Position numbers and translations under genes: made by a program. Below, piece after piece: positions 1 to 28,687 of a stretch of DNA of 34,293 bases (position 1 is its first letter; the number at the start of each line of letters is the position of its first letter). The stretch is from a virus: the IMG/VR virus record IMGVR_UViG_3300021964_000249, positions 1-34,293 of that record, one strand, 5' to 3'. The notes under the pieces are model-generated. The model was not told the DNA's origin. It was given only the letters and a program-made list of their open reading frames with translations, and did not search any database.

Positions 1-112
1 CTGCATTTCTTTTTAAACCTGTTAATTGATTCTTAACATTTGCAGATTGTTCATGGCCATCTTCACCTATTACAATTTGTTTATATGATTCTGTTAATGT
101 TCTATATTTCAT
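1..112 (-). CDS. Partial protein with capsid-targeting-like N-terminus
   Basis: Only the first 37 codons are in the window; the gene runs off the left edge. Its ATG overlaps the TGA of the upstream gene (ATGA), which fixes the start. The protein begins MKYRTLTES, so residues 6-8 read LTE, followed by Ser. The next three complete genes upstream that start this way have LTE, LAE or LNE at the same place. In T4, internal head proteins begin with a ten-residue capsid-targeting peptide (MKTYQEFIAE) cut by the prohead protease after (L/I)xE. By analogy this product may be a packaged head protein. The remainder of the visible sequence is hydrophilic and unrecognised. Confidence 0.6.
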   Translation of the reverse strand, partial: MKYRTLTESYKQIVIGEDGHEQSANVKNQLTGLKRNA

Positions 113-720
113 GAAAAATCAACTCCAAGTCTTTTTGAATGTTTCTTTAACAAGTCTTTGACTTTCATATTTTTGTTTTTTGGATTTGCAAATTCATCTG
201 CTAATTCATCGTCTGACAATATGTCGTAATCCAATTTATCATCAAAGTCTTGACCTTCTTTGGAACCTACTTTCTTATTACCAATTTTCTTTAACATTAC
301 TTTCAGTTGTGCTTGTGCTTTTGCCCTTTCTTTTGGGTCTCTATCTTTAATACCAATAGCCATTGTACCTTCATTAACTGATTCATTAGCCAATTTTAAG
401 GCTTGTTGTACCATTGGGTCTTTAGATAAACCTTTTTTAAATGCCTCAATTCTTTTATAGGCTCCGGTCATATTACCACCCATTGACAAAGCAATATCTA
501 CTCCCTTGGTAATTTCAGCAGATTTAAATTTACTTCTGTATTTTTCTCTTAGTTCTTTAAATTTCATTTTATCCTCTTTTAATTTTCCTCCAGCATCTGT
601 ATATGCTGCAATTGCCATTTTTACAATCTCTTCCTTTGTTTTTCCTTTAAACTGTGGAGCATCAGACTTCATAAAGTCCTTAATCCACGCACTCAAACCA
701 TCAGAAACACTTAGTGGCAT
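109..720 (-). CDS. Conserved marine T4-like phage protein, possibly virion-associated
   Basis: A 203-residue, lysine-rich soluble protein without membrane segments. The N-terminal stretch (residues 1-45) contains DGLSAWIKDF, SDAPQFKGKT and MAIAAYTDAG. I associate this kind of segment with conserved hypothetical proteins of T4-like cyanophages and pelagiphages, but cannot assign a function. The C-terminal third is acidic then basic (DDKLDYDILSDDELADEF). The start is set by a TAATG overlap with the stop of the adenylyltransferase-like gene, and the stop overlaps the next gene as ATGA. Tight coupling to genes with head-targeting-like N-termini suggests a virion role, though this protein lacks the LxE leader. 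Confidence 0.75.
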   Translation of the reverse strand: MPLSVSDGLSAWIKDFMKSDAPQFKGKTKEEIVKMAIAAYTDAGGKLKEDKMKFKELREKYRSKFKSAEITKGVDIALSMGGNMTGAYKRIEAFKKGLSKDPMVQQALKLANESVNEGTMAIGIKDRDPKERAKAQAQLKVMLKKIGNKKVGSKEGQDFDDKLDYDILSDDELADEFANPKNKNMKVKDLLKKHSKRLGVDFS

Positions 721-2102
721 TATACTTTGGCAGCAAGGTCTTTATCTGCCTTACCCCATGTTCCTTTTGATTTAGTTACAAAGGAATTAACTCTTGCTAA
801 TCCCCATTGAACTGCAGTAGTACCTGGACGATGTCCTGATTTCCATGCTGCAACTCCTCTATCGAAAACTTTTCTTAATATACCTAAAGGCATACCAGAC
901 TTATCAGCTTTCTTTTTAAGTGCCTTTTCTGAATTTTCACACATAAAATCTTCGAATGTTATATGTTCTGCCATCTCGCCGAACATTGCTTTAAATTTCT
1001 GTGTATGTTTTGATGGCTTTGTTTTTGCCGTAGCATCACCAGGTGCAGGTTTTGTTGTTTTCTTTTTAAAATGTGCTGCACGTTTTGCTTTTGTACTCTT
1101 TGCCATTTCTTTACCAGAGGCATCTTTTGCATAATAACCTTTAGGCTGAGTACCTTTTCTGTCTTTTATATCTGGGTCCTGAGGTCCCATTTTTTCTTTG
1201 AATGCTTTAAATTCTTGGCCTGGAGTGTCGTTTAAATATCTTTTTAATCCTTTGGCTGTTCCCCAATCTCCAGCTCCACCTTCCTCAAAAATTTCAACTG
1301 CATCTAACCAAAATCTTTTCTTTACAGTTTCAGTTTGAACCATTACATAATTGGAACCACAAACAACAATTTCGCCTACTTCTTGTGATTCTTTTACTTT
1401 TACTATATCACCTTTTTTGTATAGGTTACCATCAATATAATCTTCTCTTGTTTCAGATATGGGTGGCAATTCTATGTGTTTACGGAATGATTCTTTCTTT
1501 AATCCCATGCCTTTTCTGATGGCATAGTATAATGTTTGTATTCCGTCGCCTGGAACTTCTAATGAATTATCTGCAAATCCTTGTAGGTCACCAGCCGCAA
1601 CAAATGCTCTTAATTTACTTGCTGACATACCTTTCACGCCTTCTGCCTCTGGGTCTCTCTCTCCAGCAGATAGTACTCTAATTCCATCTTGGAAATTATA
1701 TAAGCCGTGTCTTGATTCTACACCATTATATTTGTTTAATAATATTTCAAACTCTTTGATTCTATCTGACCCAGCAACCATAGTTATCTTTGTGAAACCT
1801 TGGTCATATAACTTAGTAGCTATATCTAAAACAGTTCTTACATCTGGGTCTGCCATAATGTTTCTTGCATGCTTAGGAAACATTTTACGCATAAATTTAA
1901 TTTTGTCTTTAAATGGTAATGGATTCTTTTTAGGGTCAACTGATTTAGAAGAGTATATGCGATATACACCACCCCTTGATAATTTTTTAAGTTGATCGAA
2001 TAATTTTTCGTGCCCTTCTGTGGGTGGATTGAATCTTCCGAATACGAAAGTTACATCTTTCGATGATTCGGTTAAGTATTCACTAAATGATTGTATTGAC
2101 AT
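720..2102 (-). CDS. NMN adenylyltransferase-like protein with head-targeting leader and DUF5872-like C-terminus
   Basis: A 460-residue multidomain protein. Residues 1-12 (MSIQSFSEYLTE) look like a T4 capsid-targeting peptide ending in a prohead-protease site. Residues 15-200 form a nucleotidyltransferase domain of the nicotinamide-nucleotide adenylyltransferase type. It has GRFNPPTEGH (22-31, the HxGH-type site as TEGH), NPLPFKDKIKFM, VAGSDR and the late motif GMSASKLRAF. Around residues 220-275 is a small beta-rich segment (GDIVKVKESQEVGEIV) resembling an SH3/KOW fold. A Lys-rich linker follows, then a C-terminal domain with DRGVAAWKSGHRPGTT and WGLARVNSFV, as in phage DUF5872 proteins. The expected reaction is NMN + ATP to NAD+ + PPi, but the substrate is inferred. 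A GAGG Shine-Dalgarno precedes the ATG. If packaged, it could act on host NAD pools immediately after injection. Confidence 0.8.
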   Translation of the reverse strand: MSIQSFSEYLTESSKDVTFVFGRFNPPTEGHEKLFDQLKKLSRGGVYRIYSSKSVDPKKNPLPFKDKIKFMRKMFPKHARNIMADPDVRTVLDIATKLYDQGFTKITMVAGSDRIKEFEILLNKYNGVESRHGLYNFQDGIRVLSAGERDPEAEGVKGMSASKLRAFVAAGDLQGFADNSLEVPGDGIQTLYYAIRKGMGLKKESFRKHIELPPISETREDYIDGNLYKKGDIVKVKESQEVGEIVVCGSNYVMVQTETVKKRFWLDAVEIFEEGGAGDWGTAKGLKRYLNDTPGQEFKAFKEKMGPQDPDIKDRKGTQPKGYYAKDASGKEMAKSTKAKRAAHFKKKTTKPAPGDATAKTKPSKHTQKFKAMFGEMAEHITFEDFMCENSEKALKKKADKSGMPLGILRKVFDRGVAAWKSGHRPGTTAVQWGLARVNSFVTKSKGTWGKADKDLAAKV

Positions 2103-2121
2103 TTATATCCTCGGTATCCCA

Positions 2122-3357
2122 TTAGCCTGGATTATCCCAGCCTTTTATTATATCTTTGCTGAAGTTATTAGTTGAAAATTCCATTCGGTCAACTAACTTA
2201 ACAGCTCCACCTTCCATTCGATCTATTGCAACAAAACCTTCGGGGTTGGTTACTTTAAATCCGGATTTAGTTTTTAAAAACGTACCAATTTTACTTAGTT
2301 TGTTTAGTTTATTTATAATAATTAATTTACTATCTATGACAAAATTCTGTAAAATAAATATATTTTCTAAATTTTTTAGGTTTTTTGTAGAGAAAAACGA
2401 TAATAATGCATCTCTTTTATCAATTTGCACTTTTTTTCCTTTATCGGTACTTCTTTTGTCTATTTCCTTTGCATATCTATCAGTTACAAATTTAATTAAA
2501 CCTCTTGCATGCTTCTTGGTATTTGATATTCTTTGCCCTTTTCTTACCATGGTATTATTATATATGTTAATTACTAAGTTTAATTCTTTATTCTGTTCTA
2601 TTTCTCTAAGGGTGTTACTACTAATGGTACGAAATATTTTACCAGCACTTGATAGGTTAGTAGATAATTGTAAGCTATCTTCTTTTGTTAATGTCGCAGT
2701 GCCGGATAAATCTTTCATTGTTGCATCTTGCATCCATACCTTCCTGGATGGCTTAATTTTTGATACTATATCTTGTCCAAACTCTGCGGTCATGGTTTCA
2801 AATGTTGAACCTGAATATGTTGTATGCCATACTATACCAACCTTTGCTGCTTTTATTTCATTTGCTAATTTCGTATCATTAGGTATAGCATAAACAATAG
2901 TATTAGGGTGGAAAGTAATATGCTTAACTCCATCTATGTCCTCCGTTTTTATATCCTCTTTGTCAAACATAAAATCGCCTTGTATAACATCTTTAATGCC
3001 CAAGTCTTTTAAATTATCAAAAGCTAATTTAAGTTTCTTATTTAAATCACCAGAGGTATCATCATCAATATCATCATGACTTTTATATACCTTTGGATTT
3101 TTAGCGAAAATGCCTTTCTTTGCCACAAAGAATTGACCATCAGATGGGTCCTCTCCAGCAAATAAGGCGGGTGCACCGTCCCACTTAACCGTAACGTCCA
3201 TTGGTGCTTTTGCGTTACCGTTCAACATATCCCTCAGTGATCTAAGCGCTAGGATAGCTTGGCGTGCACCCTTGACTCCTCCGTCAAGGATTAAATCTTC
3301 AATGTGAGTCATATGTGTATTTTTTGACTCAGCAAGATAGTTTTTTAATGATTTCAT
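2122..3357 (-). CDS. KxDG nucleotidyltransferase / RNA-ligase-like protein with head-targeting leader
   Basis: A 411-residue protein starting MKSLKNYLAES. The start is chosen at 3357 because it forms a TAATG overlap with the upstream stop and places LAE at residues 8-10, like the neighbouring genes. Motifs of the covalent nucleotidyltransferase superfamily (ATP-dependent DNA and RNA ligases) can be picked out. They are KWDG (58-61, candidate adenylated Lys58, motif I), IQGDF (125-129, motif III-like with Asp in place of Glu), EGFV (373-376, motif IV) and AVKLVDR (385-391, motif V with Lys387). The gap of about 310 residues between motifs I and IV is longer than in T4 Rnl2, so there is a large insertion (140-360) or a divergent fold. 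The assignment rests on motifs only. No C-terminal OB fold is evident. Confidence 0.6.
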   Translation of the reverse strand: MKSLKNYLAESKNTHMTHIEDLILDGGVKGARQAILALRSLRDMLNGNAKAPMDVTVKWDGAPALFAGEDPSDGQFFVAKKGIFAKNPKVYKSHDDIDDDTSGDLNKKLKLAFDNLKDLGIKDVIQGDFMFDKEDIKTEDIDGVKHITFHPNTIVYAIPNDTKLANEIKAAKVGIVWHTTYSGSTFETMTAEFGQDIVSKIKPSRKVWMQDATMKDLSGTATLTKEDSLQLSTNLSSAGKIFRTISSNTLREIEQNKELNLVINIYNNTMVRKGQRISNTKKHARGLIKFVTDRYAKEIDKRSTDKGKKVQIDKRDALLSFFSTKNLKNLENIFILQNFVIDSKLIIINKLNKLSKIGTFLKTKSGFKVTNPEGFVAIDRMEGGAVKLVDRMEFSTNNFSKDIIKGWDNPG

Positions 3358-4841
3358 TATTGTAGTTTTGCGTGCGCTGCTGACCAATCTGACATGCTTT
3401 TTGCAAATTTTATAAGTCCTGCAGCTAAGTTATTTTGTTGTTCTAGTGGCATTTTATTTAATAACCACACCATTTCTATTGTTTGGAATCTAGAGTTAAT
3501 CATGGATTTACCTTGATTTTCCTTCCATGGGACATAAGCATCTTTATTACCAGGTTTTGGTTTTCCTTTATTTAATTCCTCTAAAAAACCAACAACACCT
3601 TTTGCAAATGCTCTTTCGTATTGAGCTAAATTAGAGCCTCTTTTGTATTTTATGTTTCTCCATCTTCTCATTTTTTTCCATTTCTTTTCAACACTCTTAA
3701 ATTTTTTCAAGCCATTTGGAGTTAATTCATACTCTTTTTTGCTACTGTCCCATTTAAGAATATTTGGACCACCAGCATTTTTAATACGTTCTGCATATTT
3801 ACCACCTGATAATATATCTAACATCTCAAGTTTTACCTTTCCTTGCATAGCATTTTTACCAGTCCCTTCGCCTCTTATTGTATCAGTATCAGTTGCCTGG
3901 AAAATTCTAAAATATAAACTGAAATCTGGTGGTATTCCATCACCTAAAAATTCCATATCCACACCAAGTGTAAAGTTTTTACCAAATTGAGATTTAATAT
4001 TATTAACTTTAATCTCTGGATTTTCTCCTGCATTTATATATGATAATTTACCGGTTCCTTTTTTAAGAGAAACACCTACGATTCCTTGTTTTTTTATTAC
4101 TGAATCATATAAGTATTTATTTAAATCATCTATATTATCATGGTTTGGAAGGTCCTCATAATATATCCATATGTCTGCAGGATTCCATTTATCTTTATCT
4201 GGATTTTTACCACCCCAAGCATCTTCTGCTTGAAATAAAGCCTTTGCTTGAGTCCAAACATCAATTGAACTTCTATCCATTTCAATTCTTTTTGGTTTTG
4301 TAAAGGCCTCTTTAAATACTTTTGTTTGTGCTAAATGAGAATCAAACCAATCATCTTTTTCTTGTAGATATGCAACCAATTCCTTTGCCTTAACGATAGT
4401 AAATTCTTTACCATCTTTATCAACACACATTTTAAATGTAGTTGCCTCTTGACATTTTAATATAATAGAATCTTTATCCTTTCCTCCATTATACATTGCT
4501 GCCATGACTAGCATTAATGATTCTTCGTTTGAATCTGTTGAGGCTGAACCTCTTCCCGCAACTGGATTGGAAAGTGTTACACTCATTGATTTACCATCTA
4601 AATCAAATGAAAACATATCATATGCAGATGATTTATTATTTCCTGTGTTTGGAGCAACAACCTCTACATCACTATCTGCCACTTTTGATACTAATTTTTT
4701 AAATTCAGCACTTGACATACCACCAGTATTGGTGACCCTTTTAGGGTTTGAATGTTTATCAATTCTTGTATCTAAACCAACCAACTTCTTTTGAAGTTCG
4801 GCTTGTGACATTTCATTTAAGTGTTTTGTAAATCTCTTCAT
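3357..4841 (-). CDS. Unknown protein with head-targeting-like leader and WNPADIW motif
   Basis: A 494-residue protein, unrecognised as a family. The N-terminus MKRFTKHLNEMS carries an LNE site at residues 8-10, matching the LxE leaders of the next genes. Around residue 220 lies KWNPADIWIYYED. A conserved Asp with an adjacent W/I-rich strand can occur in restriction-like nuclease folds, but I see no full catalytic set and do not assign one. The C-terminal third is basic (KKWKKMRRWRNIKYKRG), which could bind nucleic acid or scaffold. It is the first gene of the left cassette. It has an AGGAAG ribosome site and lies directly downstream of overlapping early and late promoters, fitting a protein made for new heads. 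Confidence 0.7.
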   Translation of the reverse strand: MKRFTKHLNEMSQAELQKKLVGLDTRIDKHSNPKRVTNTGGMSSAEFKKLVSKVADSDVEVVAPNTGNNKSSAYDMFSFDLDGKSMSVTLSNPVAGRGSASTDSNEESLMLVMAAMYNGGKDKDSIILKCQEATTFKMCVDKDGKEFTIVKAKELVAYLQEKDDWFDSHLAQTKVFKEAFTKPKRIEMDRSSIDVWTQAKALFQAEDAWGGKNPDKDKWNPADIWIYYEDLPNHDNIDDLNKYLYDSVIKKQGIVGVSLKKGTGKLSYINAGENPEIKVNNIKSQFGKNFTLGVDMEFLGDGIPPDFSLYFRIFQATDTDTIRGEGTGKNAMQGKVKLEMLDILSGGKYAERIKNAGGPNILKWDSSKKEYELTPNGLKKFKSVEKKWKKMRRWRNIKYKRGSNLAQYERAFAKGVVGFLEELNKGKPKPGNKDAYVPWKENQGKSMINSRFQTIEMVWLLNKMPLEQQNNLAAGLIKFAKSMSDWSAAHAKLQ

Positions 4842-4853
4842 AATACTTCCTAT

Positions 4854-4882
4854 ATTATAACACTATTTATAACATTTGTAAA
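4854..4882 (-). promoter_or_regulatory. Early sigma70-type promoter for the packaged-protein cassette
   Basis: On the minus strand TTTACA (4877-4882) and TATAAT (4854-4859) are separated by 17 bp, both matching the host-type consensus. It lies directly before the 4841 start codon, with AGGAAG between. The late element TATAAATA sits inside its spacer. Confidence 0.75.
4864..4871 (-). promoter_or_regulatory. Late promoter TATAAATA
   Basis: An exact T4-type late promoter (minus strand TATAAATA), read by gp55-RNA polymerase in T4. It lies about 22 bp upstream of the start codon at 4841. It shares DNA with the early promoter, so the cassette could be transcribed both early and late or switched between them. 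Confidence 0.7.
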
Positions 4883-9546: not shown

Positions 9547-9804
9547 TTATCTCCTCCTTCTAGGATTATTCATTGCTTGTTCTTGCATTCTTAATTTTCT
9601 TGTACGGCCTATAGCTTCAGCCTTCTTGCGTTTTCTTTTTGCAGTAGGTTTTTCATAGAATTCTCTCATACGAACCTCTTGCACAATACCTGCTTTATCG
9701 CAGGCTTTACGAAACTTTCTTAAACCAACATCAAACGGCATTGGTTTGGGTGGTTTCCTATCCTTCGGATGTCTATTCCGTGGTGTTAAATCGATACTTG
9801 GCAT
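9547..9804 (-). CDS. rpsU: Ribosomal protein bS21 homologue
   Basis: An 85-residue basic protein. Residues 22-65 match bacterial bS21: [18 protein letters not shown], then [21 protein letters not shown]. bS21 sits near the anti-Shine-Dalgarno end of 16S rRNA on the 30S subunit. Phage copies are known in marine viruses including pelagiphages and may bias ribosomes to phage mRNA. Compared with a typical bS21 (about 70 residues), this one has an extra N-terminal Pro/Lys-rich segment ([14 protein letters not shown]) and an Arg tail. Start: TAATG overlap with the upstream gene plus GGAG. The final Arg codons AGG AGG AGA form the Shine-Dalgarno of uvsX. Confidence 0.93.
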
Positions 9805-10226
9805 TATATTTCTCCTTTTATTACTCTTTTTCTCAAATCACTTGTAGAGAATCTGTGTTCTCTTTTATTAAAATAGAATTCGATTCCTCTTTTCTGGCAT
9901 ATATCTTTACCAGTGAAATCAATATCTCTATACTCTTGTCCCATAATTTTTACATCAATATCGTACATTGATAAAATATCTCTTAGTTCATCTTCTGTAT
10001 TATATACTAATATTTCGTCCACATATCTGATTGCATATAGTTGTGCTTGTCGCTCGACAATATTCTGAATGGGTTTGTTTTTCTCTGGTCTGTCAACCGA
10101 TGGGTCATTCTGTAATGCACAAATTAAATAATCACATGCAGTTTTTGCTTCTCTTAACATGGCAACATGACCTGAGTGTAAAAGGTCAAATGTTGAAGCC
10201 GTAATTCCTACTTTTGGATTTTTCAT
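9804..10226 (-). CDS. Cytidylyltransferase (glycerol-3-phosphate type)
   Basis: A 140-residue nucleotidyltransferase. It has the HxGH site as FDLLHSGHV (14-22, His17 and His20) and the late motif [10 protein letters not shown] near residues 126-135, equivalent to the RTxGISTT element of TagD-type enzymes. [11 protein letters not shown] resembles their substrate loop. Family members transfer CMP from CTP to glycerol-3-phosphate or a sugar phosphate, giving a CDP-activated precursor; the acceptor here is unknown. The start overlaps the upstream stop as TAATG. It may feed surface-polymer or nucleotide-sugar chemistry along with the dehydrogenase and epimerase further upstream. Confidence 0.85.
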
Positions 10227-10956: not shown

Positions 10957-11418
10957 TTATTTAATATATTTTATTCCTTTTTCGTTTAAAGCTGCTCTAT
11001 TCCACATATGACCTTGCTTTGTATCGTCCTTGGATTGCCCAAGATATGGAACGGCGTGGTGGTTATCAATCATCATTTGATTGACATTACCGGCGGCATT
11101 ATTCATTAACCCTTCGTCTAATGTGTATGGGTCTGCAATGAATATTTCTCCTAATATTCTTCCAAACTTACCTTTATCATGTGATACCAAATAGATATCT
11201 CTATACCTTTTTGAACCGGTTAAAAGATTTTTAAGAAATGCTTTTGATTGTAAACCATAAAACTTTTCTTCTAAATCACGAGTCCTAGATTCAGGAGTAT
11301 CAATACCCATCATTCTAACTCTTTGTTTTTTATATATCATACCAAAACCTAAATCGATATCAACATCAACTGTGTCTCCATCGACAATTCTTGTTACATG
11401 AACTTTATATTTGTACAT
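10957..11418 (-). CDS. Staphylococcal-nuclease-like thermonuclease
   Basis: A 153-residue SNase-fold protein. It contains VDGDTVDVDIDLGF (12-25) and QRVRMMGIDTPESR (32-45), then KGKFGRILGEI (82-92). Arg35, Asp40, Thr41, Glu43 and Arg87 fall at the same spacing as the catalytic and calcium-binding residues of S. aureus nuclease, so it is probably active. No signal peptide is seen, so it should act in the cytoplasm, perhaps degrading host DNA or RNA. The start overlaps the GroES-like stop as TAATG. It is the last gene of the operon from 14249. Confidence 0.9.
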   Translation of the reverse strand: MYKYKVHVTRIVDGDTVDVDIDLGFGMIYKKQRVRMMGIDTPESRTRDLEEKFYGLQSKAFLKNLLTGSKRYRDIYLVSHDKGKFGRILGEIFIADPYTLDEGLMNNAAGNVNQMMIDNHHAVPYLGQSKDDTKQGHMWNRAALNEKGIKYIK

Positions 11419-11681
11419 TATTCTTCTCCTATTATTGCTCTAATGTATTCTGATTTTATAATAACTGCAGCCTTTCCGTCCACATTTACAGGCATAGCTT
11501 TATCCCACTCAAGGAAAACTCTTTGACCTCGTGCGATTGAACCATTTGCTCCTGACCCAACTGATAAGACCAAACCAGGTTTGCTTGCATTATCTATTGA
11601 TTCTGTTAATATAATTCCACCAGCTGATTGTGTTTCAGTTGGTACTTCTGTTATTAAGACATTGTCTGCTAACATTTTCAT
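11418..11681 (-). CDS. GroES-like cochaperonin (gp31 analogue)
   Basis: An 87-residue Cpn10-type protein: MKMLADNVLITEVP, then SAGGIILTES (mobile-loop region), GLVLSVGSGA and AAVIIKSEYIRAIIGEE. In T4, gp31 replaces host GroES so that GroEL can fold the major capsid protein. This protein is closer to cellular GroES in sequence but could play the same part. The start at 11681 is chosen because AAGGAG lies just upstream; a longer frame beginning at 11717 would overlap the hydrolase gene and lacks family similarity. Located between the SleB-type hydrolase and the thermonuclease. Confidence 0.9.
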   Translation of the reverse strand: MKMLADNVLITEVPTETQSAGGIILTESIDNASKPGLVLSVGSGANGSIARGQRVFLEWDKAMPVNVDGKAAVIIKSEYIRAIIGEE

Positions 11682-11691
11682 AGTATTCTCC

Positions 11692-12234
11692 TTACTTATA
11701 AAATAAATGATTATCAATTAAAACTGTATGCTCTAATTGACTTGTCCAATAAGGATAAACCTTATCACTGTGATACCAAAGTGAACCTTCAGTAATGTCT
11801 GGGTATTCGCCAGACAATACCATATCTGCTACTCTGATTGAATTTAACCATGTAATTGAATCAACAGGTTCATCTGATTTACCATCACAGAACCAACTAA
11901 ATTGACATTGATGTCGAACTGGAACCTCAGTTCCTTTCCAATTGATTCTAGTTTTTGCCTGATATATTACGCCACATATTGTATTGGGAAATTGTAAATC
12001 CTCAACTCTATTTATCACTACATGACTCACAGCTATTTGACCAGCAAATGCTTGGTTTTGTGATTCAAAATATATGTTTTGTGCTAAACAATATCTACTT
12101 TCATCGTATTCTGACTCACTTGCTTTTAATGTTGATGGTAATAATAATATAAACATTAATAATCCACCAAATAACATTCCACCTAAAAATGTTCTAAATA
12201 ATTTTAACCCACCTGGATTTTCTATTTTATTCAC
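11692..12234 (-). CDS. SleB-type cell wall hydrolase (Hydrolase_2 family)
   Basis: A 180-residue protein. Residues 16-33 (FLGGMLFGGLLMFILLLP) form a membrane span or signal peptide, with a possible cleavage site after TLKA at residue 38. The mature part has CLAQNIYFESQNQAFAG and VSHVVINRV, typical of SleB/CwlJ-type hydrolases with the catalytic Glu in YFES (Glu58). It also has CQFSWFCDG and SLWYHSDKVYPYW. Likely peptidoglycan hydrolysis, so an endolysin candidate exported or membrane-tethered by its own N-terminus. It starts with GTG, with GGAG eight bases upstream, and overlaps the epimerase gene by eight bases. No holin is recognised nearby. Confidence 0.88.
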   Translation of the reverse strand: MNKIENPGGLKLFRTFLGGMLFGGLLMFILLLPSTLKASESEYDESRYCLAQNIYFESQNQAFAGQIAVSHVVINRVEDLQFPNTICGVIYQAKTRINWKGTEVPVRHQCQFSWFCDGKSDEPVDSITWLNSIRVADMVLSGEYPDITEGSLWYHSDKVYPYWTSQLEHTVLIDNHLFYK

Positions 12235-21451: not shown

Positions 21452-21832
21452 TTATTTTCGTTTTCCACCTTTGTAAATCCTTTGTTTCAAATCAGCGATT
21501 TGTTCTGCACTGAATAATGATAAAACAGATTTAGCTTTTTCATTGCTATATCCATAATATTCTTTAATTAGTTCAATATTAGTGACCTCTTGTGGTTTAA
21601 TCCACTTCGACCACCTTTTGTTCTTTCTAATTATATTTATAAAAAAATCGTACTGAAGCCGATGGTCTAGATTATGATGTATATTCATCTCATTAGCAAA
21701 GAGAATAGTATCTGGGTACATAGAGAGTCCACGATTAATGATAAATGCATTATATTCTTTTTCTGCAATATCATCAACCATGATACCTTTTTTGCCATAG
21801 GTAATATCGTTTATATAATCAAATGGACTCAT
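21452..21832 (-). CDS. 62: Clamp loader small subunit gp62
   Basis: A 126-residue protein: MSPFDYINDITYGKKGIM, NRGLSMYPDTILFANEMN, LQYDFFINIIRKNKRW and a basic end. The sequence and its place between the large clamp loader subunit and RegA match T4 gp62 (187 residues), of which this is a shorter version. With four gp44 subunits it loads the gp45 clamp. Start overlaps the upstream gene as ATGA. The final GGTGGA codons may contribute to the RegA ribosome site. Confidence 0.88.
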   Translation of the reverse strand: MSPFDYINDITYGKKGIMVDDIAEKEYNAFIINRGLSMYPDTILFANEMNIHHNLDHRLQYDFFINIIRKNKRWSKWIKPQEVTNIELIKEYYGYSNEKAKSVLSLFSAEQIADLKQRIYKGGKRK

Positions 21833-24680: not shown

Positions 24681-25130
24681 CTAATTATTTAATATTGGTT
24701 TATACTCTTCTATAGCTCGTGTTTCATAGGCACATATAGTTGCCTCATCATCTTCTGAAATATAAAAAATTGATATTGTTATTTCTGATAATTCGCATTT
24801 TTCCATAAACTCTTTTAATTTTTTCCCAGTTGCTTCTCTAGTAGACTCTTGATTTCTAAACGTATTAAAATGAGAAGATTGTCTATGCGAAATAGAAGAG
24901 CCTGGTTTTTCTGATTTACCAATATAAATTACTCTATTATCAACCTTCCACCAATAAATGCCACGCGAAGAAGCCGCTCCAGTAGTATTATTACCTGTGA
25001 GTGATTGAACACTAAGTGTATCAAGAGTTAATTTTTTCATACCAAATAAAGTACCTTCATTATTAAAATCATTTCTAATAGGAAGTTTTTTTATTGTTGA
25101 TTTAAGTTTTCTACATGATTTAATAGCCAT
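24681..25130 (-). CDS. GIY-YIG endonuclease family protein
   Basis: A 149-residue protein with a full GIY-YIG core. GIYWWK (57-62) and VIYIGKSEKPGSS (67-79, YIG at 69-71) are followed by SHRQSSHF, where the catalytic Arg is expected. YETRAIEEYKPILNN at the end contains the metal-binding Glu and the closing asparagine common to UvrC- and Seg-type domains. The N-terminal 50 residues (RKLKSTIKKLPIRN) are basic and may help DNA binding. Likely a free-standing nuclease, perhaps a homing endonuclease. The start overlaps the AAA+ gene stop as TAATG, unusual integration for a recent homing insertion. Confidence 0.82.
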   Translation of the reverse strand: MAIKSCRKLKSTIKKLPIRNDFNNEGTLFGMKKLTLDTLSVQSLTGNNTTGAASSRGIYWWKVDNRVIYIGKSEKPGSSISHRQSSHFNTFRNQESTREATGKKLKEFMEKCELSEITISIFYISEDDEATICAYETRAIEEYKPILNN

Positions 25131-26269
25131 TACACTACCTCCTCTTCAGAATATTCGCCTAATGCATCTTCGTCAACCTTTGTGTAAAGATCTAAGAAAG
25201 CTGATTTGGTATCATCATCAAACCTTGAGATACATAGGTCAATTGCCTTGTCTCTCTTGTTAAATATTGAGAAGGTTTGAACAATATGGCAAAGCCTTCT
25301 TGTTGAAATGACTTCGTCCACACCATCATCGTAAAAAGTTTTTCTGATAATGTCAGCCCATATAACCAATTTATCTGCAAAGTCATCATCAGTTGCACCG
25401 AACTTTTCCATATGTTTCAATACGATTTTCTTTTCGACACCCATACCAGGGAATTGTTGGTCAACTGAAATGGTAAACCTTTCAAGGAAAGCTTCATCGA
25501 TAATTGAAGCAGCAGTAAATCTGCCATCCTCAGAACCTTTACCTTTTGTATTGGCAGTAGCGATAACATTAAACCCTTCAGCAGGTTTTACAATTTCACC
25601 AGTCTTTTTAACAAGAACAGGTTTACCTTCAAGGATACCTTGGAGACACATAATTTTATTTGTTGCTCTATCGATTTCGTCCAGAAGTAATATTGCACCG
25701 TTCTCCATTGCTTTTAAGACAGGGCCTTTTGCGAAGACAGTTTCTCCATTGATTAATCTAAAACCACCTAACAAATCATCTTCGTCAGTTTCAGGGTTGA
25801 TTTGAACTCTGATGAATTCTTTTTTAACTTTAGCACAAGCCTGTTCTACCATAAATGTTTTACCATTCCCTGATAAGCCAGAGATATATGTAGGGTAAAA
25901 CATATTTGATTTAATTATTTTAACGATGTCATGGAAAGCACCCCATGCGATAAATGTTGGGTCCTCAGAAGCGAAGGTTTTTTCTTCGTTAACGATGGAT
26001 TGCATCTGCGCTGCATCTGCAGGCATTGTTGGATTCACAACAGATGAATTCAGAACCTCAGCTCTGATTGGTTCGATAAGAGCCGATAGGTCATATGTAC
26101 CTATTTTAACTCTATTGTCTTTAGTTAGAATTGGGTCCCAGTCCTTACCAGTATATCCAAGAGCTTTACCAGCATCTACGATTGTAGATTTTCTGAAGTG
26201 CTCTTGGTCCGGATATCTAGATACCAGGTCCTTAAGTAATATAGTAGTTGAAGTTTTCAAGTTTTGCAT
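25130..26269 (-). CDS. MoxR/CobS-type AAA+ ATPase
   Basis: A 379-residue protein. The N-terminal 100 residues are unassigned. The AAA+ module has Walker A GLSGNGKT (131-138), NPETDEDDLLGGF (158-170), Walker B ILLLDEID (193-200), sensor IATANTKGKG and a RFT arginine-finger region. It belongs to the MoxR/CobS group; homologues in T4-like cyanophages are labelled CobS. MoxR ATPases typically partner with VWA proteins to remodel targets, and the VWA gene is immediately upstream. Strong ribosome site AAGGAG and its own early promoter. Cobalt insertion into cobalamin is unlikely, as no other pathway gene is present. Confidence 0.92.
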   Translation of the reverse strand: MQNLKTSTTILLKDLVSRYPDQEHFRKSTIVDAGKALGYTGKDWDPILTKDNRVKIGTYDLSALIEPIRAEVLNSSVVNPTMPADAAQMQSIVNEEKTFASEDPTFIAWGAFHDIVKIIKSNMFYPTYISGLSGNGKTFMVEQACAKVKKEFIRVQINPETDEDDLLGGFRLINGETVFAKGPVLKAMENGAILLLDEIDRATNKIMCLQGILEGKPVLVKKTGEIVKPAEGFNVIATANTKGKGSEDGRFTAASIIDEAFLERFTISVDQQFPGMGVEKKIVLKHMEKFGATDDDFADKLVIWADIIRKTFYDDGVDEVISTRRLCHIVQTFSIFNKRDKAIDLCISRFDDDTKSAFLDLYTKVDEDALGEYSEEEVV

Positions 26270-26303
26270 AATATAGTCTCCTTATCAATTTATTATGTGT
26301 ACC

Positions 26304-26332
26304 ATTATACTACACTTTAGGTATAATGTAAA
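26304..26332 (-). promoter_or_regulatory. Early promoter for the AAA+ ATPase operon
   Basis: Minus-strand TTTACA (26327-26332), 17 bp spacer, TATAAT (26304-26309), preceded by GCGTG. It lies just downstream of the first phased GTWAC array. Confidence 0.85.
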
Positions 26333-26348
26333 CACGCTATTATAAAAA

Positions 26349-26386
26349 GTTACAAAAATGTTACACAAATGTAACACTCCTGTAAC
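26349..26386. repeat. Phased GTWAC array 1, also a possible terminator hairpin
   Basis: Plus strand GTTAC, GTTAC, GTAAC, GTAAC begin at 26349, 26360, 26371 and 26382, exactly 11 bp apart, starting two bases after the VWA stop codon. The arrangement is symmetric, so on the minus strand TGTTACA-TTTG-TGTAACA forms a hairpin, with an outer GTTAC/GTAAC pairing and TTTTT further on. It can act as a terminator, as a set of protein sites on one DNA face, or both. Confidence 0.75.
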
Positions 26387-26387
26387 A

Positions 26388-28589
26388 TTAGGCCACGGCC
26401 TTTCCAAAATTTGTAAGTAAAGTTTTGTTATTTTTCTTAGACTTACTGTATTTCTTAAACTGTGATTGTATTTGACCCTTTGTTGCATCTTCGGCAACAT
26501 CGAATCCATCGTCCTCAGTATTTAAGAACTTACCATTTTTAACAATATAGTACTCGTTATATCCAAGAGTATCTTGAAAAGTAACACATTTGTATTTTGC
26601 ATATTGTCTGTTATATGGCTTACGGTCATCATTGTCATACATTCCATATCCTTCGCCATCAACTCTGGCGTCTGATATTTTGTACCAGAAATTAGATGAA
26701 CCATCAGCAATAAAGAAACCAAGAGTTTTAACTCCATATCTCTTTTGAATATTTTCCAAAAGAGCTTTAGTTCCTCGTCTGCCTCTATCAGGTAAATTAA
26801 CCTTTTGGCCGTCAATGTTAATTAAACATTTGCCATAATTAGCACTATCAATATATTTAATTTTAGATGATTTTGCAATTTGGCATCTGTTTGCATCGCC
26901 GTCTGATAAAATAACCAGGTTCATTTTGTCAACTGCATTCTTATTTTTAAATGTTTTAATAAGGCTGTGAGTTTTAACAAGAGCCTCGTTTAATGGAGTT
27001 GAACCATATTCCTCAAACTTAGAAAGAATTGCTCTTTCGTCATATGAATATTCACTAGTACAAAGAACCTTTCTGAGATAAATGTGGAATAACGCATCTT
27101 CGTAATCATTCTTTTTTAGCTTAGAGTTGATAATCTGAGGCATTGATAATCCACCGTGATGTAATTCACTCTCTCTTGTATCAGGTCCAGTATAATCATC
27201 GGCCGCATAACCCCAACCATCTCTGCCTAGATTGACATTAGTAGAAGTAAACCCATAAACATCGAATGGTATGTTAACTGTTTTACAGAAAACAACCAAA
27301 TGTAATAATTGGTCCATGACCTGAGCCATTGTGTTTGACATTGAGCCAGAGTAATCAATTAACATCATCATGCCATGGTTTTTAGCATCAGCCAATTTAG
27401 TAACTCTTGCAAAGATATCATCATTGGTTTTATATGACCATAATCTGTTAACATCGATTGAACCAGTTTTTGCAGTTTGAGCTCTGGTATATCTGTAAGC
27501 TGCTTTTCTCATTTCGAACTCTTTAACAGCATAATTAGTATTTCTTTTAACTTCTTTTAAATATGACTTAAACTCTGCTCTGTAGTTTTCATAGTTTTTA
27601 ATATCAGTTTTTGCCTTTCTGTCAGCGGCCAACTCTTCGTATGATATAACAATTCTGTCAGATATTTCTTTTCTGAATTCATTACCAATAGAGATTTGCT
27701 CACCTCTTTCGTCTTTATCTAAGAGAGTGTGTTCTTTTCTTCTGAACGTTTCATCAGTTTCAGAAACATCTTCTTCCATCGGAGTTTGATTTTCGACATT
27801 CCCTTGGTATTGCTCATCATCACTTTCATCTCCTGCAGTAGATTGATTTTCGGTAGCTCCTGATTCCTCGGTATCTGTTTCTTGGTTAGAAGCTTCTGTC
27901 TTAGTATCTTGTTCGGCATTTGATTCCTCCTTATCATAATCATCATGACCACTTGGTCCAGTTTGTTCTTGTTCTTGTTTTCCAGGAGTTTCTTCTTTTG
28001 AAGATTGTGGCTCAGGTCGTTTAATTAGTTCTTCTTGATTTTCTTTAGTATATGCAAGAACATCTCTAACCAAATCCAATACCTCAGCAAAGGTTTGTGT
28101 TTTCATTGCTCTTTGGTAATATACAATTTCCTCAGAATTAAAAGGTACATCTAGTAAATTACCAACTTTAGCCTTTAGGTTAATTTTATCGATTAATTTA
28201 ACATTATTCCAATCTGTGTTAACAATATCATCTCCAAAGAAACCATCATCAAATAATTTTTTATATCCTCTGGACATAGGGCCAACAAGACCGGCATAAT
28301 TTTCTTTTATGTGTCTTTCGATCCTGGCGTCTTCGATAACATTAATATATGACCTAGGGCAACCCTCTAGTTTTTCAGGGCTGTCATGCCAACCTTCGAA
28401 TGGAGTGTATAATGCATGACCAACTTCGTGACCAATTAATAGGTCAGCAACATCATTACCCATATCTTTCCATTGAGGTAATCCTAATACTCTATCTTTA
28501 ATATCGAACCACGCTGTGTGATAGTTACCATATTGAACAGTAATATCTTCTTTGGCCATTAGTTTTGCTAGTATTGATTTATGTTTCAT
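26388..28589 (-). CDS. VWA-domain protein with N-terminal zincin motif (CobT-like partner of MoxR ATPase)
   Basis: A 733-residue protein. Residues 50-60 carry LLIGHEVGHAL, an HExxH zinc-protease motif (His54, Glu55, His58), with NVIEDARIE (83-91) supplying a probable third ligand (Glu86). A long acidic, Gln/Glu-rich linker (about 192-280) follows. From about residue 405 a von Willebrand A domain begins with MMMLIDYSGSMS (MIDAS Asp412, Ser414, Ser416), then SDGDANRCQI. The layout resembles CobT-type partners of CobS/MoxR ATPases. The start at 28589 forms TAATG with a 32-residue upstream gene; only a weak AGGG is seen, so coupling probably drives translation. Likely a metal-dependent remodelling or protease complex with the next gene; target unknown. 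Confidence 0.88.
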   Translation of the reverse strand: MKHKSILAKLMAKEDITVQYGNYHTAWFDIKDRVLGLPQWKDMGNDVADLLIGHEVGHALYTPFEGWHDSPEKLEGCPRSYINVIEDARIERHIKENYAGLVGPMSRGYKKLFDDGFFGDDIVNTDWNNVKLIDKINLKAKVGNLLDVPFNSEEIVYYQRAMKTQTFAEVLDLVRDVLAYTKENQEELIKRPEPQSSKEETPGKQEQEQTGPSGHDDYDKEESNAEQDTKTEASNQETDTEESGATENQSTAGDESDDEQYQGNVENQTPMEEDVSETDETFRRKEHTLLDKDERGEQISIGNEFRKEISDRIVISYEELAADRKAKTDIKNYENYRAEFKSYLKEVKRNTNYAVKEFEMRKAAYRYTRAQTAKTGSIDVNRLWSYKTNDDIFARVTKLADAKNHGMMMLIDYSGSMSNTMAQVMDQLLHLVVFCKTVNIPFDVYGFTSTNVNLGRDGWGYAADDYTGPDTRESELHHGGLSMPQIINSKLKKNDYEDALFHIYLRKVLCTSEYSYDERAILSKFEEYGSTPLNEALVKTHSLIKTFKNKNAVDKMNLVILSDGDANRCQIAKSSKIKYIDSANYGKCLINIDGQKVNLPDRGRRGTKALLENIQKRYGVKTLGFFIADGSSNFWYKISDARVDGEGYGMYDNDDRKPYNRQYAKYKCVTFQDTLGYNEYYIVKNGKFLNTEDDGFDVAEDATKGQIQSQFKKYSKSKKNNKTLLTNFGKAVA

Positions 28590-28687
28590 TATACAATTTG
28601 CCCTAAAGTGATTAATAGTAAAAGACCACCAAAAGTTGAAACGAAGTCCCAATCTAAGAGTCCTAATTGTTGTAGTTTATGTATCAT
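28589..28687 (-). CDS. 32-residue hydrophobic leader-like peptide coupled to the VWA gene
   Basis: Begins MIHKLQQLGLLDWDFVSTF and ends GGLLLLITLGQIV, giving one predicted membrane span at the C-terminus. AAGGAG stands at ideal distance before its ATG, while the following VWA gene lacks a good ribosome site and starts inside its stop codon (TAATG). It may therefore be a coupling peptide, a real membrane microprotein of the MoxR-VWA complex, or both. Not recognised as a family. Confidence 0.6.
   Translation of the reverse strand: MIHKLQQLGLLDWDFVSTFGGLLLLITLGQIV

Follow-up and report, generated by a model that had tools for sequence, protein, structure and literature searches.

Which proteins does a T4-like phage carry in its head, and can they be recognised from their genes? 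This question is raised by the left end of IMG/VR virus record IMGVR_UViG_3300021964_000249 (34,293 bases, the whole of which is referred to here as the window), apparently a fragment of a T4-like phage. Here, on the minus strand downstream of a gene for a gp41-like helicase, unrelated proteins begin with short peptides of the kind that targets the T4 internal proteins to the capsid. Phages of the T4-like group are numerous in the sea, and the function of most of their genes is not known. We suggest that the left end of the fragment is very probably a head-cargo operon, i.e. that the tagged proteins are packaged in the head and probably ejected with the DNA. The sequence-only reading had proposed that enzymes are packed in the head; its head-targeting part is well supported by the match to positions mapped in T4 IPIII, the unrelated bodies, the late promoters and mass spectrometry published for virions of relatives, and for the window proteins themselves we infer packaging, cleavage, ejection and catalysis.

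Leaders in the window

The strict leader pattern [FYL]xx[FYH][LIV]xE, in which E stands no later than residue 14, marks exactly three of the 46 window genes, all adjacent (4841-720, minus strand), a contiguity with p=0.003 for a random gene trio. The strict pattern was picked after relatives had been inspected, and an earlier, broader version selects the same three window genes. In T4 IPIII, residues 4 and 7 are the main positions mapped for targeting, and residues 8 and 10 those for processing (PMC9026906); large residues occupy these positions in two of the window leaders, and the third (MSIQSFSEYLTE) is offset by two. The likeness extends to T4 IPI, IPII and IPIII together (in the T4 record IPII and IPIII start MKTYQEFIAEA and IPI starts MKTFKEF): in both cases the first 10 residues form a leader in which positions 4 and 7 are large, position 8 is L/I/V and position 10 is E; this one leader is joined to bodies that are unrelated, and a T4-type late promoter element lies upstream. 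For the DUF6267 protein the mechanically called open reading frame (ORF) begins at TTG 3387 and the leader requires the internal ATG at 3357; most DUF6267 homologues use the equivalent start site, and on this comparison the ATG at 3357 is the true start.

Plain LxE was rejected as evidence for a leader, as it is too common: [LI]xE has an internal density of 1.1% per residue, and it occurs early in other window genes, e.g. MSQFLIE and MVDDIAE. This bears on the initial count of four leaders ending in LxE, from which the three full leaders emerge intact and MKYRTLTE (112-2), which does not match the full pattern and begins an ORF cut by the window edge, does not. Given that the sole relative of this gene, L019 (MNLTETYRKLIAEDGHEQSANV), aligns with ...SYKQIVIGEDGHEQSANV in the window, the cleavage site is likely IGE17 and not LTE8, and MKYRTLTE is doubtful as a fourth leader, to be dropped or shifted to IGE17. 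The fifth of the leftmost genes (720-109) has no leader, as had been implied; its 203-amino-acid (aa) product and the L079 17570 protein both contain SDAPQFKGK, and the L079 copy has the leader MQGFKKHLEE.

Late promoters and virions of related phages

Judged by the cassette proteins, the closest named relatives are Phage C48C1, Methylophilales phage Melnitz, Pelagibacter phage HTVC008M and Stenotrophomonas phage DLP6, and by sequence comparison the window derives from a marine T4-like phage with Phage C48C1 (Kyanoviridae) as the nearest named relative. The gene order variable protein, DUF6267, cytidylyltransferase-like protein recurs in Melnitz, HTVC008M, syn9 and S-SZBM1. To place the leaders among relatives, 80 related loci were retrieved with DUF6267 as bait and analysed together with reference loci. 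The strict pattern stands at the N-terminus of 183 of 1,448 distinct proteins compared with a mean of 3.5 and a maximum of 9 in shuffled N-termini, an excess of about 50-fold in counts that are not independent, because the loci were fetched with DUF6267, and from which relatedness was not removed. E is residue 10 in 121 of the 183, and the consensus is roughly M-K-S-F-K-x-Y/F-L/I-x-E. The bodies behind this leader are unrelated: DUF6267, the NMNAT-like protein, stand-alone DUF5824, HAD phosphatase-like proteins, a P-loop kinase (AAA_33/Zeta_toxin-like), a DUF6321 protein and several basic or unknown proteins. In the C48C1 genome the leader is found in none of the 129 called genes outside a 41-kb cassette stretch and in five inside it, with the cytidylyltransferase as a sixth if read from a GTG start; the annotated start of this gene (L001, about 21622-21688) omits the leader, and the upstream GTG gives MIKNFSQYLLEEEREVYFTFGRMNPPT.

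The element TATAAATA precedes 23 of 34 leader genes and 48 of 611 other genes in the related loci (Fisher p=3e-16; genes with an upstream gap of at least 40 nucleotides (nt) and TATAAATA within 70 nt, relatedness not removed). Window-wide it is not enriched (9 versus 7.4 expected), and it was dropped as a window-wide signal in favour of the position-specific association. Since this consensus match precedes the leader genes, we propose that the cassette is expressed late, which fits proteins made along with the head. The head genes lie outside the window fragment. In relatives gp21 is present and the major capsid protein has GGFLTE, resembling T4 GSFLTE; a gp21-type protease and an LxE-cleaved capsid protein are both present in C48C1, S-CREM2 and S-SZBM1.

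Proteins of this family have been found in virions. The cytidylyltransferase was detected by mass spectrometry in S-SM1 (PMC3037559) and found in virions of S-CREM2 (PMC10665884) and S-SZBM1 (PMC9146016), and an NMNAT-like protein in those of S-SCSM1 (PMC9602691); a leader or head targeting is not discussed in these four papers. These cyanophage proteins (T4-GC190) share gene family and neighbourhood with the window protein. In S-SZBM1 the virion-detected cytidylyltransferase starts with the leader MRFRQFIIEA; immediately upstream of it lie DUF6267 (MAKNTHLEHL) and gene 142, both leaderless and both absent from the published virion list. In S-CREM2 four virion proteins have a leader: the S-adenosylmethionine (SAM) lyase (MKDFDSFLEE; PF23780), an APH-like kinase (MKRFDAFLTE from GTG), the cytidylyltransferase (MKNFSSFLTE) and gp13 (MKDLHSFLTE). 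By annotated starts, 4/6 strict leader genes of S-CREM2 are virion-detected versus 52/219 overall (p=0.029).

Two further cases in these phages may be mentioned. In S-SZBM1, a pair of small proteins starting MKSFKSFLSES and MKTFKQYITEA is encoded between the genes for terminase and neck (L100, 122311-123125), adjoining virion protein 190; the pair makes up a second group of tagged proteins, apart from the main cassette, and is missing from the published virion list. An S-CREM2 virion protein annotated as CRISPR-Cas9 nuclease (L094, 7704-10313) carries at residues 18-26 a looser form of the leader, RFASFMAEA; its Cas9 name looks doubtful because no Pfam family matches at E 0.01.

Table 1. Positions of the cassette features in the window
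Feature	Position	Strand	Remarks
Late promoter element TATAAATA	4864..4871	minus	23 nt before first cassette ATG
494-aa protein, KWNPADIW family	3357..4841	minus	leader MKRFTKHLNE = 4841-4812
411-aa DUF6267 protein	2122..3357	minus	leader MKSLKNYLAE = 3357-3328
460-aa fusion of NMNAT/cytidylyltransferase-like domain and DUF5824	720..2102	minus	leader MSIQSFSEYLTE = 2102-2067
Internal leader-like remnant FEDFMCE, residues 383-389, at DUF5824 junction	936..956	minus	from comparison with stand-alone DUF5824
203-aa protein without leader	109..720	minus	shares SDAPQFKGK with L079 17570
Small gene cut by window edge	2..112	minus	MKYRTLTE doubtful as leader; likely site IGE17

The predicted cargo

In total, these data suggest the following scheme. 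One late promoter would drive several unrelated proteins, each opening with a capsid-targeting sequence of 10-12 residues like that of the T4 internal proteins; if T4 is a guide, this leader would attach the cargo to the prohead's scaffold core, and the gp21-type protease of the phage would cut after [LIV]xE; and the freed cargo would remain in the head and most likely exit with the DNA at infection. The cargo would consist of a ligase-superfamily-like nucleotidyltransferase (DUF6267), an NMNAT-like adenylyltransferase with DUF5824, and the 494-aa protein.

The sequence-only reading had called two of these proteins a KxDG nucleotidyltransferase-like protein and an NMN adenylyltransferase-like enzyme, and both calls stand as predictions. 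The DUF6267 protein matches its profile (PF19782) with E=9e-100 and 335 bits against a curated cut-off of 27. Its motifs K58-W-D-G, QGD126-128, E373-G (E-G-F-V) and K387, which we take, by eye, to be ligase-superfamily motifs I (KxDG), III, IV (EG) and V (K) in order, have key residues invariant in 46 homologues. The structure model has a mean confidence (pLDDT) of 89.5, the leader forming a poorly predicted tail; in a PDB search with the model DNA ligases were the best matches, with E of only 0.2-3, and a sequence-profile PDB search gave nothing useful. The ligase-type fold is thus a prediction, and DUF6267 a putative ligase-superfamily-like nucleotidyltransferase. The best BFVD match of the model is an S-PM2 protein in which DUF6267 is joined to a cytidylyltransferase-like domain (TM 0.90).

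The 460-aa protein matches PF01467 (26 bits versus a cut-off of 21) and PF19141 above curated cut-offs, keeps the NMNAT-like nucleotide-binding signature GRFNPPTxGH (GRFNPPTEGH in the window) and has a conserved SASK, and is predicted to be an NMNAT-like adenylyltransferase with DUF5824; a sequence-profile PDB search with the NMNAT-like alignment returned nothing useful. DUF5824 is found either as a stand-alone protein with an N-terminal leader (MKSFNNFIKEDATSTALKKKAEKSG) or as a fusion, C-terminal to the NMNAT-like domain, and the leader of the stand-alone form sits at the place equivalent to the internal remnant of the fusion. Because a leader-like [LIVM]xE stretch persists at many fusion junctions (e.g. 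FEDFIITEGKSDAALKKKADKSG; window version FEDFMCENSEKALKKKADKSG), the fused protein may be cut between its modules too. A second cytidylyltransferase-like protein in the window (9804-10226, 140 aa, PF01467) lacks a leader and for this reason is probably a cytoplasmic enzyme.

The 494-aa protein has a weak match to PHROG 1462, and among its 25 homologues E106, W219, P221, D223, SLK258-260 and K492 are invariant. A PD-(D/E)XK nuclease was considered, as E106, PxD 221-223 and SLK 258-260 are suggestive of its E..D..xxK active site; the structure search was uninformative, fold, Pfam and PDB comparisons gave no support, and the protein was not assigned to these nucleases.

A nucleotidyltransferase that uses nicotinamide adenine dinucleotide (NAD+) releases nicotinamide mononucleotide (NMN), and NMNAT converts NMN back to NAD+. 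Argued from their fusion in S-PM2, which supports a functional link, DUF6267 and the NMNAT-like protein might form one delivered module, in which a ligase-type nucleotidyltransferase is coupled to regeneration of NAD+ from NMN as a nucleic-acid end-repair or NAD+-restoring kit acting at entry, before phage transcription; we put this forward tentatively and regard it as rather unlikely. NAD+ recycling between the two proteins, or NAD+ restoration against host defences, is attractive but putative. In phage NAD+ reconstitution (NARP1 and related pathways) a phage nicotinamide-nucleotide-type transferase restores NAD+ (PMC12774641); the window shares such a transferase, as predicted from sequence, and differs in that no partner NARP gene was identified. 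Some relatives add a tagged kinase-like or phosphatase-like protein to the cassette. Related cassettes encode tagged proteins resembling P-loop kinases (AAA_33/Zeta_toxin) and HAD phosphatases, at L069 884-1540, L048 9384-10004 and L054 6330-6947, and tagged kinase-like, phosphatase-like and ligase-like proteins together would resemble an end-healing and sealing kit.

The T4 head-cargo scheme is already known; what is new here is that the cargo would be large putative enzymes in a conserved late operon. The T4 internal proteins are small and basic, whereas the window bodies are large (411-494 aa) putative enzymes, lie in a conserved operon downstream of the gp41 helicase and include some fusions with internal leader-like sites. 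The T4 ADP-ribosyltransferase Alt is a head-carried enzyme processed by gp21 (PMC9026906); by description the likeness is that of an enzyme in the head, and the window differs in its enzyme classes and in having several per operon. A literature search restricted to open-access papers, which is weak evidence of novelty, found none linking a capsid-targeting sequence to marine T4-like phages and none naming DUF6267.

Leader and late promoter together provide a simple sequence rule predicting head-borne proteins of unknown function, which are probably among the first to act in infection. This rule offers an explanation for the recurrence of NMNAT-like proteins in cyanophage virion proteomes, where contamination could not be excluded, flags other likely cargo such as the SAM lyase and the kinase of S-CREM2, and opens to experiment the question of which enzymes are injected by a marine phage and how these act during the first minutes.

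Alternative explanations and the surrounding genes

Several observations weigh against a head-cargo operon. The DUF6267 bait biases the sample towards the cassette. The S-CREM2 association is modest and becomes non-significant with wider patterns; in S-SZBM1 alone leader and virion detection are not significantly associated, and the virion list of that phage lacks the small tagged proteins 191 and 192, published virion lists being shallow. The authors of the S-CREM2 (PMC10665884) and S-SCSM1 (PMC9602691) studies allow for co-purification, and a published proteome was found for neither this phage nor any phage with a leader-bearing DUF6267. Moreover, homologues without the leader, which the sequence-only reading had named as evidence against packaging, are what the sampled cyanophage loci contain for DUF6267 (0/48 and 0/42 with leader) and the upstream family (0/29). 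The cyanophage cytidylyltransferase, on the other hand, retains it in 46/47 and 39/39 distinct sequences (85/86 together), the first figure being biased in that the leader itself was one search pattern and the second unbiased. Unlike in cyanophages, DUF6267 and the upstream protein are often leader-bearing too in the window's own clade. Among isolates, DUF6267 bears the leader in Methylophilales phage Melnitz (MINFSKYITE) and Stenotrophomonas phage DLP6 (MMKFTQFLAE). Given that the leader is retained on the cytidylyltransferase and patchy on its neighbours, the distribution indicates that the NMNAT-like protein is the constant cargo, the tag having been either extended to its neighbours in the window's clade or lost by cyanophages.

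Alternatively, the tagged proteins could enter the prohead core and act in head assembly without being injected, their enzyme-like folds serving assembly or being relics. IPIII is reported to contribute to head morphogenesis, its exact role being open (PMC9026906), and no enzyme fold is recognisable in the 494-aa protein; however, the invariance of the catalytic-type motifs of DUF6267 in its 46 homologues and the retention of GRFNPPTxGH in the NMNAT-like protein speak against a purely structural role, and payloads that vary widely between phages and include a SAM lyase and kinases fit effectors better than scaffolding, so that we consider this explanation improbable. A leader serving some other purpose, such as translational control or contact with a shared phage partner, with virion detection due to contamination, would accommodate the co-purification that two of the proteomics papers could not exclude and the putative status of cleavage. 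Against it, the pattern retains exactly the IPIII targeting and cleavage residues, leader presence and detection are concordant in S-SZBM1 and S-CREM2, and the genes are under late promoters; we judge it very unlikely. That chance or composition accounts for the LxE leaders is scarcely credible as a general explanation: plain [LI]xE is indeed common, also in other window genes, and MKYRTLTE may be such a match, but the extended pattern is confined to three adjacent window genes and far exceeds shuffles in the related loci. Chance is refuted for the three full leaders and possible for MKYRTLTE.

Beyond the proposed head-cargo operon, comparison with annotated relatives identifies further T4-like genes on the minus strand, encoding a gp43-like polymerase, a RecA/UvsX-like protein, the gp41-like helicase, clamp, clamp loader, gp46/47-like proteins and Hsp20; a tRNA-Ala is also present. 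A gene for a GroES-like co-chaperonin (11418-11681; Cpn10, E=3e-13) adjoins genes for a cell-wall hydrolase (11692-12234, PF07486) and a staphylococcal-nuclease-like protein (10957-11418). At 25130-28652 a MoxR/CobS-like AAA ATPase is encoded beside a protein of 733-754 aa, which has no Pfam match and occupies the place of the HTVC008M 'peptidase' next to CobS; the CobS label may mask another machine.

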